Source of the DNA: Bacteroidetes bacterium SB0662_bin_6
GTDB lineage: Bacteria; Bacteroidota; Rhodothermia; Rhodothermales; VXPQ01
Length of the DNA: 64,000 nucleotides
Direction: 5' to 3'
Assembly: GCA_009839485.1 (NCBI GenBank)
Contig: VXPQ01000048.1
Location: 1 to 64,000, forward strand
Made by a program: the position numbers and the translations under genes. Below, in pieces: positions 21,076 to 64,000 of the stretch; position 1 is the stretch's first letter; each line of letters starts with the position of its first letter. The notes beneath the pieces are model-generated. The model made no database searches and was not told where the DNA came from. It saw only the letters and a list, made by a program, of their open reading frames with translations.

Positions 21076-21149
21076 AGGCCCGTAGCTCAATTTGGCAGAG
21101 CAACTGACTCTTAATCAGTGGGTTGGGGGTTCGAGTCCCCCCGGGCCTA
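21076..21149 (+). tRNA. tRNA-Lys (anticodon CTT)
   Basis: A full cloverleaf is visible. The acceptor stem is AGGCCCG/CGGGCCT, the D stem GCTC/GAGC, the anticodon stem ACTGA/TCAGT with loop CTCTTAA (anticodon CTT, lysine AAG codon), and the T stem GGGGG/CCCCC with loop TTCGAGT. The discriminator base is A. CCA is not encoded and must be added after transcription. Confidence 0.96.
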
Positions 21150-57747: not shown

Positions 57748-59385
57748 TCAATCCTGGCCAACGAGGGCTTCCTTCATGGAACGGACCGGCCTGGCGCCTT
57801 CCCGCATCAGCGCATACCGGATACCATCTGCAATAGCCTGCCAGCTTGCTTCCAGAATGTTGGTGGACACCCCCACCGTATTCCATGTCTCGTTCCCGTT
57901 CTTATGCTCGACAAGCACACGGACATACGCCGCCGTGCCGTCTTCGGGGCTTACCACGCGCACCTTGTAATCGGCAAGATGCACCTGCTCGAGGCTCGGA
58001 TAAAAGGCGGTCAACACGCCGCGCAATGCGTTCGACAGGGCATCTACCGGCCCTACTCCTTCGGCCACGAGTAATTCCCTGCGGCCATCCACGCGAAGAG
58101 CCACCGTTGCCTGGGTGGTATCCGCACCTGCATCGCTGAGTTCACTCTGGACCCGAAGTCGCTCCAGAGAAAAGAACTCCGTTTCCTCGCCCTGAATCTG
58201 CCGGAGCAACAGTTCGAATGAAGCTTCGGCGCCTTCGAATTCATACCCGAGATGCTCGAGATCCTTGATGCGCTTTACGGCGCGGGCCGCCTCGTCCGCT
58301 TCGCCCAGATCAAGGCCCAGTTCCTGCGCCTTGTAGCGTACGTTGCTGCGACCGGATAAATCAGACACGAGCACCCGGCGCTTGTTACCGACCTGTTCGG
58401 GCATGAGATGCTCGTAGGCCGCCGGTTCCTTCATCACCGCCGACACATGGATGCCGCCTTTGTGGGCGAATGCACTCCGACCCACATACGCCGATCGCCC
58501 CACCGGATCGAGGTTCGCCACCTCGTATACGAAATGCGAGAGATCCGTGAGTTCACGCATTCTGTCCGGCGCTACGCACGCGTATCCGAGTTTGAGTTGG
58601 AGTCCCGGGACAATCGCGGTCAGATCCGCGTTGCCGCAGCGTTCTCCGATCCCATTGATCGTCCCCTGCACATGCCGTGCGCCGGCCTGTACCGCTATGA
58701 TCGAATTGGCCGCGGCGCATCCGGCGTCATTGTGTGCATGAATGCCGAGCACCACATCGAAGCGATCCGCCACATCCTGGACGATTCGCCCCAGCGTGTG
58801 TGGCAGCGTACCGCCGTTCGTGTCGCACAGAGCCAACACGTCCGCCCCCGCTGCCACTGCGGCCTCCAGCGTCTCCAGCGCATAGACCCGGTCATTCAGG
58901 TACCCGTCGAAAAAATGCTCTGCATCGTATACCACATGCTTTCCGTGCGCCTTCAGGTATGCTACGGAAGAGCAGATCAGGTCAAGGTTTTCCTCCCTGG
59001 TCACGCCCAGGGCCACTTCCACATGGAGCGTCCAGCTTTTGCCAAAAAGGGAAACCACCGGGGTATCCGCTGCCAGCATGGCCTGCAGGTTGGGATCGTC
59101 CTCCGGCGCGTACTGCGCACGGCGTGTGGAGCCAAAAGCACAGATGCGCGCCTGTTCCCAATCCACATCCCGCGCCAATTCGAAAAATTCCTGATCTTTC
59201 GGATTTGAACCAGGCCATCCCCCTTCTATAATGCCAATGCCAAAGTGGTCAAGACGTTTTGCGATCCGCAACTTGTCGCGAGCCGTCAGTGAAACGTGCT
59301 CGCCTTGCGTACCGTCGCGGAGCGTCGTATCGAAGAGCTCCACAAGGACCGGTTCGTCGGCATGTTCTGGCATGAAGGTATCCAT
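57748..59385 (-). CDS. cimA: citramalate synthase
   Basis: A 545-residue enzyme of the 2-isopropylmalate synthase family: DTTLRDGTQGEHVSLTARDK, HAHNDAGCAAANSI, GTINGIGERCGNADLTAIVP, HKGGIHVSAVMK, and a C-terminal LeuA-type dimerisation/regulatory domain (VGPVDALSNALRGVL, YVRVLVEHKNG). Its length and the GTQGE variant place it in the CimA group rather than LeuA; a separate leuA is present. CimA condenses pyruvate and acetyl-CoA to (R)-citramalate, opening a threonine-independent route to 2-oxobutyrate and isoleucine. Start 59385 is preferred to 59442. Gap to leuD is 72 bases. Confidence 0.87.
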   Translation of the reverse strand: MDTFMPEHADEPVLVELFDTTLRDGTQGEHVSLTARDKLRIAKRLDHFGIGIIEGGWPGSNPKDQEFFELARDVDWEQARICAFGSTRRAQYAPEDDPNLQAMLAADTPVVSLFGKSWTLHVEVALGVTREENLDLICSSVAYLKAHGKHVVYDAEHFFDGYLNDRVYALETLEAAVAAGADVLALCDTNGGTLPHTLGRIVQDVADRFDVVLGIHAHNDAGCAAANSIIAVQAGARHVQGTINGIGERCGNADLTAIVPGLQLKLGYACVAPDRMRELTDLSHFVYEVANLDPVGRSAYVGRSAFAHKGGIHVSAVMKEPAAYEHLMPEQVGNKRRVLVSDLSGRSNVRYKAQELGLDLGEADEAARAVKRIKDLEHLGYEFEGAEASFELLLRQIQGEETEFFSLERLRVQSELSDAGADTTQATVALRVDGRRELLVAEGVGPVDALSNALRGVLTAFYPSLEQVHLADYKVRVVSPEDGTAAYVRVLVEHKNGNETWNTVGVSTNILEASWQAIADGIRYALMREGARPVRSMKEALVGQD

Positions 59386-59457
59386 TTGGCTTCTGATTGC
59401 CCGATGTGGTGTCACCTCTGACAACAACCTGCAACGGGACACACCCTGTTCGATGCG

Positions 59458-60021
59458 TCAGGTCGGCATAAATCCGGCTTGTCTTGCGAATTCGAAAACA
59501 TTGCCCGCTTTCAGTATCTCGGCCACATCCCCAAGCGGTTTGAGCAAAAACTCCTCTCCGGTCGTGCGATTGGCAAGCTTGCCGAGCGTCGTATCTATTT
59601 CAAGGAGATCACCCGTGCGCACGCGCTCGACCAGCCGCTCGATCGACTCGAACGGAACGATAAACCCTCCGTCCACCGCATTGCGGTAAAAGATGCGGGC
59701 GTAACTCTCAGCCACCACAGCGGTGCATCCGGCTTCCTGCAATGCAAACGGGGCATGCTCCCGCGAAGACCCGCACCCGAAATTCGAACCGCCTATCACA
59801 ATCGTATAGGCGCTCTCGAACGCATCTTCCTCGGTAAACGGACGGTTTCCGTAAGGAAGTCCTTGCTGATCCTGCGGTACGCCGCTGAGCGCATAGCGCC
59901 CGTAATACTTGCGCTCCTCCGGATCGGACAGACTGTATACCAGGTGCTCCGCCGGAATAATCTGGTCTGTATCGATGGCGTCGCCCACTACGTAGGCCGT
60001 TCCCGTAATCATCTTTTTCAT
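59458..60021 (-). CDS. leuD: 3-isopropylmalate dehydratase, small subunit
   Basis: A 187-residue swivel domain of isopropylmalate (and possibly citramalate) isomerase. GDAIDTDQIIPAEHLVYS and IGGSNFGCGSSREHAPFAL are the family signatures. The ATG (60021) overlaps the leuC stop by four bases. It pairs with LeuC, the Fe-S subunit. In organisms with CimA the same enzyme often also isomerises citramalate. Confidence 0.95.
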   Translation of the reverse strand: MKKMITGTAYVVGDAIDTDQIIPAEHLVYSLSDPEERKYYGRYALSGVPQDQQGLPYGNRPFTEEDAFESAYTIVIGGSNFGCGSSREHAPFALQEAGCTAVVAESYARIFYRNAVDGGFIVPFESIERLVERVRTGDLLEIDTTLGKLANRTTGEEFLLKPLGDVAEILKAGNVFEFARQAGFMPT

Positions 60022-61310
60022 ACCAGCACCTCGCGAGGATCCGTAATGACTCCGGAAAGCGCCGAGGCCGCCACCGTGTAGGGGGAGGCCAGATATACGG
60101 AAGCGTCCTTGCTGCCCATGCGTCCGGGGAAGTTCCGGTTCGTCGTGGAGATCACGACTTCCGTGCCGTGGGTTCTGCCGAACGTATCCGACGGCCCGCC
60201 GAGGCATGCCGCACAGGAAGCCTGGCCCAGTTTGCAACCGGACCGTTCGAAAATTTCGTACAGCGTGTCGCCTTCGACACGCGTCGTGTGTAACTGCTTT
60301 CCGATCCAGGTCGTCGCCGGCACGATGTAGGTGTCGATGACTACCTCCTGCCCCCGCAGGATGCTCGCCGCCGCCACAAAATCCTCCAGTTTGCCGCCGG
60401 TGCAACTGCCGACGTACGCCCGATCCAGGCGCGTCCCGACCACTTCCGACACCGTCGCCCGGTTGTCCGGGCTGTGCGGCTTCGCCACAAGCGGCTCGAT
60501 GTCCTCGACACGGTAGGTCTTAAGCGTATGATACCGGGCATCGGGATCGCCGTAGACAGGCTCAAACTCCGTATCGGTGCGCGCCCGCACGTACTCGAAG
60601 GTTTTTTCGTCGGGCGGAATGATCCCGTTCTTTCCTCCTGCTTCGATCGCCATGTTCGTCAACGTCATGCGCTCGTGGACCGGCAGATCGTAAACCGCTT
60701 CCCCGTCGAACTCGAGCGCACGGTAGGTGCCCCCGTCCGTTCCGATGTCGCCGATGACCTGCAGGATGAGGTCCTTCGCCATGAGATAAGGAGGGAGAGA
60801 CCCCTCGAACACGAATCGCATCGTTTCGGGGACCTTGAGCCAGATCTTGCCGGTGCCCATGATCAGTGCAGCATCCGTGTTGCCCACTCCGGTCGAAAAC
60901 ATGCCGAACGCACCGGAAGTACACGTGTGACTGTCCGTGCCGATCAGCAGTGAACCCGGCACGTTGAACCCTTCCTCGGCAAGCGCCATGTGGCATACGC
61001 CCTTGTAGCTCGGCGTCCCCGGATCATAGTAATACGGGAGATCGTGCTCCGCGGCAAAGGCCCGAAGCAAATCCACATTCCGGTTCGCGTGGTGGTTCTT
61101 CGTGAAGATGTAGTGATCAGGAATGATCACCAGCTTCTCCTTGTCCCACGGTACCGCATCGGCTCCGAATTCGCGGCGGAAAATATCGATGGTCGGAGGG
61201 CCGCACACATCGTGCGTCATGAGGATGTCCACATCCACCCAGATGTTATCCCCGGGCGCCACCCGATCCCGACCTGCGTGCCGCGCCAGTATTTTTTCCG
61301 TAATCGTCAT
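60018..61310 (-). CDS. leuC: 3-isopropylmalate dehydratase, large subunit
   Basis: A 430-residue aconitase-type enzyme with a 4Fe-4S cluster. The cluster cysteines are Cys303 (GSCTGG), Cys366 and Cys369 (CAACLGG). Substrate motifs include LLIGTDSHTCTSGAFG. Its start overlaps the leuA stop and its stop overlaps leuD (both ATGA), so all three are coupled. The size fits the short archaeal-like leuC group also found in many Bacteroidota. Confidence 0.95.
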   Translation of the reverse strand: MTITEKILARHAGRDRVAPGDNIWVDVDILMTHDVCGPPTIDIFRREFGADAVPWDKEKLVIIPDHYIFTKNHHANRNVDLLRAFAAEHDLPYYYDPGTPSYKGVCHMALAEEGFNVPGSLLIGTDSHTCTSGAFGMFSTGVGNTDAALIMGTGKIWLKVPETMRFVFEGSLPPYLMAKDLILQVIGDIGTDGGTYRALEFDGEAVYDLPVHERMTLTNMAIEAGGKNGIIPPDEKTFEYVRARTDTEFEPVYGDPDARYHTLKTYRVEDIEPLVAKPHSPDNRATVSEVVGTRLDRAYVGSCTGGKLEDFVAAASILRGQEVVIDTYIVPATTWIGKQLHTTRVEGDTLYEIFERSGCKLGQASCAACLGGPSDTFGRTHGTEVVISTTNRNFPGRMGSKDASVYLASPYTVAASALSGVITDPREVLV

Positions 61311-62917
61311 GCTACGCCTCCCTCGAACGAACTCATGATGCCATTGCCCACGAATGTCATGTTTTCCTCGTCGGATCGCCAGGTTTCCAGATTATTGAGC
61401 GCATCGATGTAGGCATCCGCAGATGCCCGAATCACATCCGTGTTTTGCGCCTGCCCTCTGAAAAAGGCTCCGCTTTCCCGGATAAGCACCGTCACTTCGC
61501 CAATGGCTCCGGCCCCCTGGGAAACGGATCGAATAGAATAACTCTCCAGTTTGTGCGAACTGCCAAGCGCATGGTTGATGGCGCGGTACACCGCATCCAC
61601 AGGGCCATCGCCCGTCCCCTGCGCAGTCAACCGCTTCTCGGTAGAAACATTGAATACTTCTACCTCAGCCTTCGGCTGCTTACCGGTAGCGACCTTAACG
61701 GACAGTCTGTCGAGCCGGTAATGCTGTAAAACCGCATGCTCCGCATTCCCCTGAACCAGGTGAATCAGATCCGCATCGTGGATTTCTTTCTTGCGATCCG
61801 CAAGGCGAACAAATAACTGATAGAGCGTGTCCTTCCGGGACTCCTCGACATGCAGGCCCATCCGCTTCAGACGGCTGAAAAAGCCGTGGCGTCCGGAATG
61901 CCGCCCCAAACGGATTTGTTCGCTGGTCTGGCCCACGTCTTCCGCCCGCATGATTTCGTAGGTATCCCGGCGCTTCAGCACGCCATGCTGGTGAATACCT
62001 GCCTCGTGGCTAAAGGCATTGCGCCCCACAATGGCTTTGTTCGGCGGGACCGGAAACCCCGTCGCCACGGACACCATGCGACTTGTTTCGGTAAGGTGCG
62101 TGGCGTCTATGTCCGTGTCGACGCCGAATTGCTCATGCCGGACACGCAACGCCATCACCACTTCTTCCAGCGAGGCATTGCCGGCCCGTTCGCCAATGCC
62201 GTTGACCGTACACTCGACCTGCCGGGCACCCGCACACACGGCCGCAATGGAATTGGCCACAGCAAAACCGAGGTCGTCATGACAGTGGGTCGAGAGCACC
62301 ACATTCTTTGTAGACCGTACGCCTTTGCGAACCGCCTCGAACATGCGTGCATATTCGGTAGGCGTGCAATAGCCGGTCGTATCCGGAATGTTGATAGTGG
62401 TGGCGCCCTCCTCTATCGCGGCAGCAATCACCTCGCACAAAAACCCGTGATCCGTGCGGCCCGCATCCTCCGTGCTGAACTCTATATCATCGGTATACGT
62501 CCGCGCCAGTTGTACAGCTTCACGAGCCATCTGCACGACGTTCCGGCGTTTCTCCGAGAGCGTGCTGCCGTACTTGTCACTGCCGAACTTGGCGTCTATG
62601 TGAATATCGCTGGTGGCGATAAACGTATGAATCCGCGTCCGTTGGCCGCCGGACAATGACTTGCCGGCGGCATGTACATCGTCTTCGAGTGCACGGGCAA
62701 GCGCGCAGATCACGGGGCCCTGTACATCGCGCACGATGCTCGCCACCGCCTCGAACTGGGCCGGCGACGAAATGGGAAAGCCCGCCTCGATCACGTCCAC
62801 GTTCAGCTTCACGAGTTGCCGGGCGATACGGATCTTCTCATTGATCGTCATGGATGCGCCCGGCGCCTGCTCGCCGTCGCGCAACGTCGTATCGAATATG
62901 GTTACTTTGTCTTTCAT
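61307..62917 (-). CDS. leuA: 2-isopropylmalate synthase
   Basis: First committed step of leucine synthesis: 2-ketoisovalerate plus acetyl-CoA. The 536-residue protein has DTTLRDGEQAPGASM at the N-terminus, the metal-binding STHCHDDLGFAVANS, HQHGVLKRRDTYEIM, and a C-terminal LeuA allosteric domain (GDGPVDAVYRAINHALG ... GAGAIGEVTVLIRE), which normally confers leucine feedback inhibition. A GAGG run 10 bases before the ATG may be the ribosome site. The 157-base gap between leuA and leuB holds the three-helix element at 62944-63032. Confidence 0.96.
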   Translation of the reverse strand: MKDKVTIFDTTLRDGEQAPGASMTINEKIRIARQLVKLNVDVIEAGFPISSPAQFEAVASIVRDVQGPVICALARALEDDVHAAGKSLSGGQRTRIHTFIATSDIHIDAKFGSDKYGSTLSEKRRNVVQMAREAVQLARTYTDDIEFSTEDAGRTDHGFLCEVIAAAIEEGATTINIPDTTGYCTPTEYARMFEAVRKGVRSTKNVVLSTHCHDDLGFAVANSIAAVCAGARQVECTVNGIGERAGNASLEEVVMALRVRHEQFGVDTDIDATHLTETSRMVSVATGFPVPPNKAIVGRNAFSHEAGIHQHGVLKRRDTYEIMRAEDVGQTSEQIRLGRHSGRHGFFSRLKRMGLHVEESRKDTLYQLFVRLADRKKEIHDADLIHLVQGNAEHAVLQHYRLDRLSVKVATGKQPKAEVEVFNVSTEKRLTAQGTGDGPVDAVYRAINHALGSSHKLESYSIRSVSQGAGAIGEVTVLIRESGAFFRGQAQNTDVIRASADAYIDALNNLETWRSDEENMTFVGNGIMSSFEGGVA

Positions 62918-62943
62918 TGGAAAAATTCCTCGACGATTCCTTT

Positions 62944-63032
62944 TTACAAGTGGTGCGTAGGGGCTATCGCACGCGCCCGATGCGTCGACGACAGGAAGTC
63001 GTCCCGCCCATATTGCGTCGGGCGCCTTGTAA
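62944..63032. other. perfectly nested three-helix element between leuB and leuA
   Basis: Plus-strand pairings: outer TTACAAG (62944-62950) with CTTGTAA (63026-63032). First inner arm GTGCG (62953-62957) with CGCAC (62968-62972), extended by TAG/CTA across one bulged T and closed by a GGG loop. Second inner arm GCGCCCGA (62973-62980) with TCGGGCGC (63018-63025), topped by GACGAC (62987-62992)/GTCGTC (62998-63003) with an AGGAA loop. The two inner arms directly abut, making a three-way junction with about 29 pairs in 89 nt. Further pairs next to the long arm are G-T wobbles on the plus strand and would be A-C mismatches on the leu-sense strand. It may be an RNA gene, a leu leader, or a palindromic mobile element; I recognise no known family. 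Confidence 0.5.
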
Positions 63033-63074
63033 GTCGAAGAAAATCAACACAGCCAATCCGTACAGTGCAGCGTG

Positions 63075-64000
<926 letters not shown>

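Follow-up and report, generated by a model that had tools for sequence, protein, structure and literature searches.

The enterobacterial leu leader (the LeuL attenuator) carries Leu codons in a leader peptide ahead of the leucine genes, and the position of the ribosome chooses the structure that forms. The classical LeuL attenuator stops transcription at the operon head by means of an intrinsic terminator. In erm-type translational attenuators, a ribosome halted in the leader ORF frees the start of the next cistron, and the inducer is a drug. The LEU element of Actinobacteria lies upstream of leuA. The Leu codons of its leader ORF pair with the leuA Shine-Dalgarno sequence at a base stem, and it also contains a pseudoknot (Seliverstov et al. 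2005, PMC1262725). A run of Leu codons is present in its ORF, as in MNRANLLLLRRGGSQA (PMC5784534) or MRFGLLLLSCRGEGL (PMC8079986). In Corynebacterium, comparative genomics identified a conserved uORF, the ilvB-II uORF motif, in the leader of a branched-chain operon (PMC10272879).

We analyzed an element between leuB and leuA in a Rhodothermales MAG. The window is the whole stretch of DNA that was analyzed, 64,000 nucleotides. The element may work like the LEU element, a likeness seen in arrangement. Both lie upstream of leuA, both set Leu codons against the leuA Shine-Dalgarno sequence in a base stem (here UUCUUCGAC/GUCGAGGAA), and neither has an obvious terminator. The element differs in that it lies mid-operon, in a different phylum, and contains one to a few Leu codons in most families, with a Leu-rich form only in family f4. 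The LEU element has a pseudoknot, whereas the structure here is a hairpin or three-way junction, as predicted by folding tools that do not model pseudoknots. Like the LeuL attenuator, it has Leu codons in a leader peptide before leucine genes, and ribosome position would choose the structure. Unlike LeuL, it lies inside the operon, and a scan found no terminator-like site on either strand at 62850-63150. The ilvB-II uORF motif differs in lying at the head of ilvBNC and not at leuA; the two were set side by side by description, not by sequence. The element resembles erm-type attenuators in that a halted leader-ORF ribosome would free the next start, but the inducer there is a drug and not an amino acid, and there is no homology. 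We found no report of such a leader in Rhodothermales, within incomplete coverage of the literature. The element is absent from Rfam.

Operon setting and fold of the element

The gene order is ilvB-ilvN-ilvC-leuB-[element]-leuA-leuC-leuD-cimA. The names ilvC, ilvN, ilvB, and leuD rest on translations and the order of genes in the operon and not on family searches. The ilvC, ilvN, and ilvB genes precede leuB on the same strand, beyond the window. Since these genes, leuB, leuA, the leuC-type gene, and cimA are all on the minus strand, the mRNA is the minus strand. The element is a sense-strand leader of leuA inside an ilv-leu operon (Table 1). The complete leuB ORF, present in the longer locus L046, encodes 373 aa.

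The head of the operon contains an ilv-type leader peptide, MTQHSRTRITLRRTGQDISRVLRGTACVADGQLASVVLLLGLIIITV*. It is on the minus strand, some 400 nt ahead of ilvB and beyond the window, at about 7902-8045 of L046 (about 67901-68044 of the contig). This ORF is a classical branched-chain leader. It is conserved in all five genus genomes examined, where the peptide ends in VVLLLGLIIITV or close variants (e.g., VVLLLPGLIIITV or VVFVLPGLVIITI in the four other genomes).

The first-pass annotation had described four perfect helices at 62944-63032, and all four are present exactly as described. They are TTACAAG/CTTGTAA (7 bp), GCGCCCGA/TCGGGCGC (8 bp), GACGAC/GTCGTC (6 bp), and GTGCG/CGCAC plus TAG/CTA (5+3 bp). 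The 89-nt element is predicted to form a three-way junction on each strand, at -42.5 kcal/mol (plus) and -42.1 kcal/mol (minus). The pairing is better than chance, as had been claimed; dinucleotide shuffles were as stable in 1 of 200 cases for the plus strand (z -3.2) and 0 of 200 for the minus strand (z -4.2). The true element is longer than 89 nt. On the minus strand, it gains a 9-bp closing stem (63041-63033 with 62934-62926), and the 126-nt form that includes this stem folds at -52.9 kcal/mol (z -4.9, 0 of 200 shuffles). The element is single copy in its own genome. It had been noted to lack known riboswitch or T-box features, and a search of the window against Rfam at the gathering threshold agrees. 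The sole match was a tRNA gene at 21076-21149 on the plus strand. A search of seven loci at a permissive threshold gave two weak matches to sRNA families, below gathering and off the element.

Table 1. Features of the leuB-leuA element and the adjacent genes, in window coordinates
Feature	Position	Strand	Evidence or remark
leuB (3-isopropylmalate dehydrogenase), 3' part, runs out of window	63075..64000	-	NCBIfam TIGR00169, 399.5 bits, above cut-off
Leader ORF (uORF), 44 codons	62944..63078	-	Start ATGA overlaps leuB stop; stop TAA in P1 3' strand
Codons CTT CGA CTT (Leu-Arg-Leu), proposed control codons	63031..63039	-	Second CTT invariant in 27 genomes
Closing stem 5' strand UUCUUCGAC	63033..63041	-	Folds with 62926-62934 or genus equivalent; mismatches in G001/G002
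Helix P1 5' strand UUACAAG	63026..63032	-	Folding; invariant in genus
Helix P2 5' strand GCGCCCGA, core hairpin, within Arg-Arg-Pro codons	63018..63025	-	8/8 pairs in 27/27 genomes
Inner hairpin 5' strand GACGAC	62998..63003	-	5/6 pairs kept in 6/6 genus genomes
Inner hairpin 3' strand GUCGUC	62987..62992	-	Folding, genus comparison
Helix P2 3' strand UCGGGCGC	62973..62980	-	Cross-family pairing
Helix P3 5' strand GUGCG, genus only	62968..62972	-	GUACG/CGUAC with 2-nt slip in G001/G002
Helix P3 3' strand CGCAC, genus only	62953..62957	-	Genus comparison
Helix P1 3' strand CUUGUAA, includes leader-ORF stop UAA	62944..62950	-	Folding
Closing stem 3' strand GUCGAGGAA, includes Shine-Dalgarno-like GAGG of leuA	62926..62934	-	Sequence, folding
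leuA (2-isopropylmalate synthase), proposed controlled gene	61307..62917	-	NCBIfam NF002086, 708 bits; TIGR00973, 652 bits; above cut-offs
leuC-type large subunit, next operon gene	60018..61310	-	NF001614, 478 bits, above cut-off
cimA-type citramalate synthase, last operon gene examined	57748..59442	-	TIGR00977, 684 bits, above cut-off

Core sequence in the genus and in other families

Families are given here by working labels (f1, f3, f4, f8, f12, f14, and so on), and G and L numbers denote genomes and loci. Aligning the leuB-leuA gap in relatives, a check that had been proposed, placed the element in 6 of 6 genus genomes, always between leuB and leuA. TTTTCTTCGACTTACAAGGCGCCCG is invariant in the genus, and the flanks drift. 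All six genomes fold alike on the mRNA strand, closing stem included. In G001 and G002, GUACG/CGUAC replaces GUGCG/CGCAC as helix P3 and is shifted by two bases. A pair count on the genus MAFFT alignment did not show covariation, because MAFFT did not place this 2-nt slip; the cross-family comparison was used instead.

The leuB-leuA gaps of other families, when read directly, contain a shared core, CGACTTAnnnGGCGyCCG, with its complement 21 to 48 nt on. BLAST found nothing in families where reading the gap showed the core. By pattern and model searches, the core was found in 27 genomes from families f1, f3, f8, f12, and f14, in each case as a single copy at leuA, in the leuB-leuA gap. The covariance model added two f14 genera, G074 and G079, both upstream of leuA; these are additional to the 27 tabulated genomes. 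Model searches of 245 class genomes and 394 phylum genomes gave no other convincing core match, and such searches miss diverged forms (f4 was found only by reading). The core was seen in f1, f3, f8, and f12 before any pattern was set. The patterns for f14 required CTTA, so the invariance of CTT in that family is partly by selection. A BLAST match in G037 was rejected as chance (33 bases inside apparent coding sequence). Pattern matches away from leuA (e.g., L072 and L078) were also attributed to chance, as a reversed control pattern gives a similar background.

Only the Leu codon and P2 are common to the families. The three-way junction is a genus feature. P2 starts 8 nt from the first base of the invariant CTT codon and is 100% paired in 20 distinct sequences. 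The pair types seen are C-G/U-G/U-A and A-U/G-U/G-C. Six P2 cells were changed on both sides, compared with 2.2 in shuffles, which is more than in any of 500 shuffles. Slid control pairings were 22 to 49% paired. G074 contains a new compensatory pair, U-A (GCGCUCGG/CCGAGCGC), and the other model-found genus keeps the pair by G-U. These compensatory changes across families support the earlier proposal of a conserved structured RNA.

A closing stem over the leuA start is supported by folding in f1 and by covariation in f3. It is sketchy in f12 and f4 and was not supported in f8 and f14. The f3 stem has up to 15 bp and ends about 8 bases before the leuA ATG. Three of its pairs were changed on both sides, a number reached by 8 of 500 shuffles. 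The duplex energy of the stem was clearly better than that of shuffles for f3 only, and most f1 genomes do not beat shuffles, a result that limits what can be claimed for this stem. In the minimum-energy fold of some f14 genomes, CGAUGAG, which lies at the leuA start codon, is paired to CUUAUCG.

Family f4 encodes a leucine-rich leader (METDPVKTNLPKTSALLLALLGLRLPCASLMPYFFW) in the same gap. It contains seven to nine Leu codons and includes LLGLRLP. A different hairpin is enclosed by the pairing of its CGACUU codons with AAGUCG upstream of leuA. The leucine-rich ORF and this base stem are present at loci L094, L095, and L097, with ALLLALLGLRLPCASLMPYFFW at the end in L097. A T run directly follows the stem in two of the three loci and might also end transcription. 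The terminator scan listed no intrinsic terminator at the f4 leader hairpin.

Proposed control of leuA by leucine

The element is probably a translational leucine leader (attenuator) for leuA that consists of a small ORF, a Leu codon, and a hairpin; the response to leucine we infer from this arrangement. The first-pass annotation had kept a leu leader as a fallback reading without noticing the leader ORF, and this is the reading that the evidence supports. Its position and synteny with leuA, its conservation, its sense-strand structure, and the conservation of the ORF frame were established directly. The ORF would be translated in cells and coupled to leuB, and it would present the conserved Leu codon (often within Leu-Arg-Leu) 8 nt before the 8-bp hairpin. 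The closing stem of the genus would pair the control codons with the leuA ribosome-binding region. With ample charged leucyl-tRNA, ribosomes would pass through the ORF, the junction would re-form in their wake, and leuA initiation would be kept low. Under a shortage of leucyl-tRNA, a ribosome would halt at the CUU codons and cover the 5' strands of the closing stem and P2. The leuA start region would then be free, and more LeuA would be made. Because P2 starts 8 nt on, a ribosome whose A site is occupied by CTT would cover most of the P2 5' strand and the genus closing stem, as estimated by general footprint size.

Three features expected of an attenuator were compared among the families. In the 27 genomes, from 5 families, a short ORF directly precedes leuA, a gene for making leucine. 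At the structure there are codons for leucine, the product (an invariant CTT, a leucine-rich form in f4, and one Leu in most f3 members). A structure that overlaps both the control codons and the expression platform was found for the genus studied; the f3 stem also does so, and f8 and f14 are unsupported.

If this reading is true, the operon has two successive leader ORFs: the one before ilvB is a branched-chain leader, and the one in mid-operon is a leucine leader for adjusting leuA. Leucine synthesis would be separable from valine and isoleucine synthesis on one mRNA. Translation-level leucine leader control, described in Actinobacteria, would then also operate in a Bacteroidota lineage and take a similar form there, with Leu codons set against the leuA start region. 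The recognizable core could be used to annotate a small ORF and an RNA element that are missing from Rfam.

Leader ORF, strand, and alternative explanations

The leader ORF is open in 6 of 6 genus genomes, and 27 genomes from 5 families have an ORF at this site and in this frame. Its start overlaps the leuB stop as RTGA in three families (f1, f12, and most of f14). Among normal-sized gaps with this overlap, the distance from ATG to CTT is a multiple of 3 in 8 of 8 distinct lengths, unlike the distance from CTT to leuA, in which all three frames are represented. The exceptions are two f14 genomes whose gaps are enlarged. In G084, G055, and G090 (f14), the gap has grown to 270 to 537 nt, and the ORF start has moved off the leuB stop. 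The genus contains indels of 9 and 3 nt inside the ORF and of 1 to 2 nt after its stop. The ORF runs up to the leuA start codon and stops on it in f8 and in most genomes of f14, which suggests that leuA may be fed by reinitiation there and that the response could differ, even in sign.

These overlaps are what would be expected of constitutive coupling or expression balancing, which we consider rather unlikely. The ORF would carry ribosomes from leuB to leuA, and the hairpin would set the leuA rate or block a nuclease, with no leucine sensing. ATGA is present at both ends of the ORF in some families, and leader-gene ribosome reinitiation has been proposed for many phyla (PMC4833913). The small number of Leu codons in f1 and f3 also fits. 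Several points count against the leucine leader: the genus has two CTT codons split by CGA, no Leu-codon run, and only two Leu near the hairpin; most f3 members have a single Leu codon before the hairpin; and CTT is not a particularly rare codon (37 of 244 Leu codons). The CGA between the Leu codons is a rare Arg codon (9 of 199 Arg codons in seven operon genes). Coupling leaves unexplained, however, why CTT and the hairpin sequence are held while the remaining ORF drifts, and why f4 has a leucine-rich version.

The compact junction, with its closing stem over the leuA start, could instead be a riboswitch or protein-binding RNA. In that case, the ORF would be incidental, and the RNA would bind a regulator, leucine, or an intermediate of the pathway. 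Some of the invariant genus nucleotides are unpaired (e.g., ATG.GC in the inner loop), and the authors of the LEU element study favored a binding protein for their case (PMC1262725). This explanation is unlikely. The part common to the families is the codon-plus-hairpin core and not P3, the inner loop, or P1. It also leaves the conservation of the ORF frame unexplained, and there is no match in Rfam.

The leader peptide itself was considered in two ways. The conserved core peptide, L-R-L-[IST]-x-R-P, might be a nascent chain that halts the ribosome on leucine itself, an arrest peptide that controls only leuA, apart from the ilv leader. This is quite improbable, because P becomes S in G074 and G079 and both the hairpin and the peptide of f4 differ. 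The ORF might also be a stand-alone small protein gene of the operon, with the RNA fold as a by-product of its codons. The conserved frame would fit this as well as the leucine leader, and so would a third-position excess in f14 in the part of the ORF up to the core (18/25/37 minimum changes, permutation p 0.001). The excess is absent from the f14 part after the core and, a point against the leader reading, from f1, the genus (p 0.75); in f3, it has the same direction and is not significant (p 0.10). Codon positions vary equally in the genus (12/13/13 changes between G000 and G001), so the leader peptide is not conserved over its full length; from the Leu-Arg-Leu codons onward, nearly every base is kept. 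Within the genus, the core does not vary even at synonymous positions, and P2 stays paired despite the P-to-S change in G074 and G079. The C terminus and length of the ORF vary, from just past the hairpin core to the leuA start. A small protein gene is therefore very unlikely. Conservation as protein, named in the first-pass annotation as a point against an RNA element, was found in part: the frame is conserved and the f14 part before the hairpin looks coding, and the rest does not.

The reading that the first-pass annotation preferred was an independent small RNA, transcribed from the plus strand and antisense to the leu operon. The plus strand does fold (z -3.2), and G003 has a P3 pair that is kept by the plus strand only. 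The wobble pairs said to extend the long arm in the plus strand only are present, facing a sense-strand C-A mismatch above the 8-bp helix, and were seen only in this genus. Energy and z are better on the minus strand with the closing stem. Across the 27 genomes, P2 forms 216 of 216 pairs on the sense strand compared with 206 of 216 on the antisense strand. The other 10 cells do not pair in a plus-strand transcript, where a sense G-U pair turns into C-A. No promoter-like site (sigma-70-type only) or terminator-like site was found on either strand at 62850-63150, and both synteny and the closing stem point to the sense strand. An antisense RNA is thus very improbable. A palindromic DNA element or a mobile element insertion, the other alternative named in that annotation, is the least probable of all; inverted repeats are present, but there is only one copy in the genome, searches with models R1 and R2 gave no copies elsewhere in related genomes, and several families share the site, with RNA pairing preserved through their base changes.

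Two further leuB-leuA gaps contain other structures. The gap at L035 (G023, f5) is 389 nt long and contains repeated hairpin-forming units around GTGGAATAACGGCCCATATTCCACTT, and the leader core is absent from it. The gap at L083 (G015, f11) is 48 nt long, and much of it is one strong hairpin, GGGTCGTTCGCGAACGACCC.
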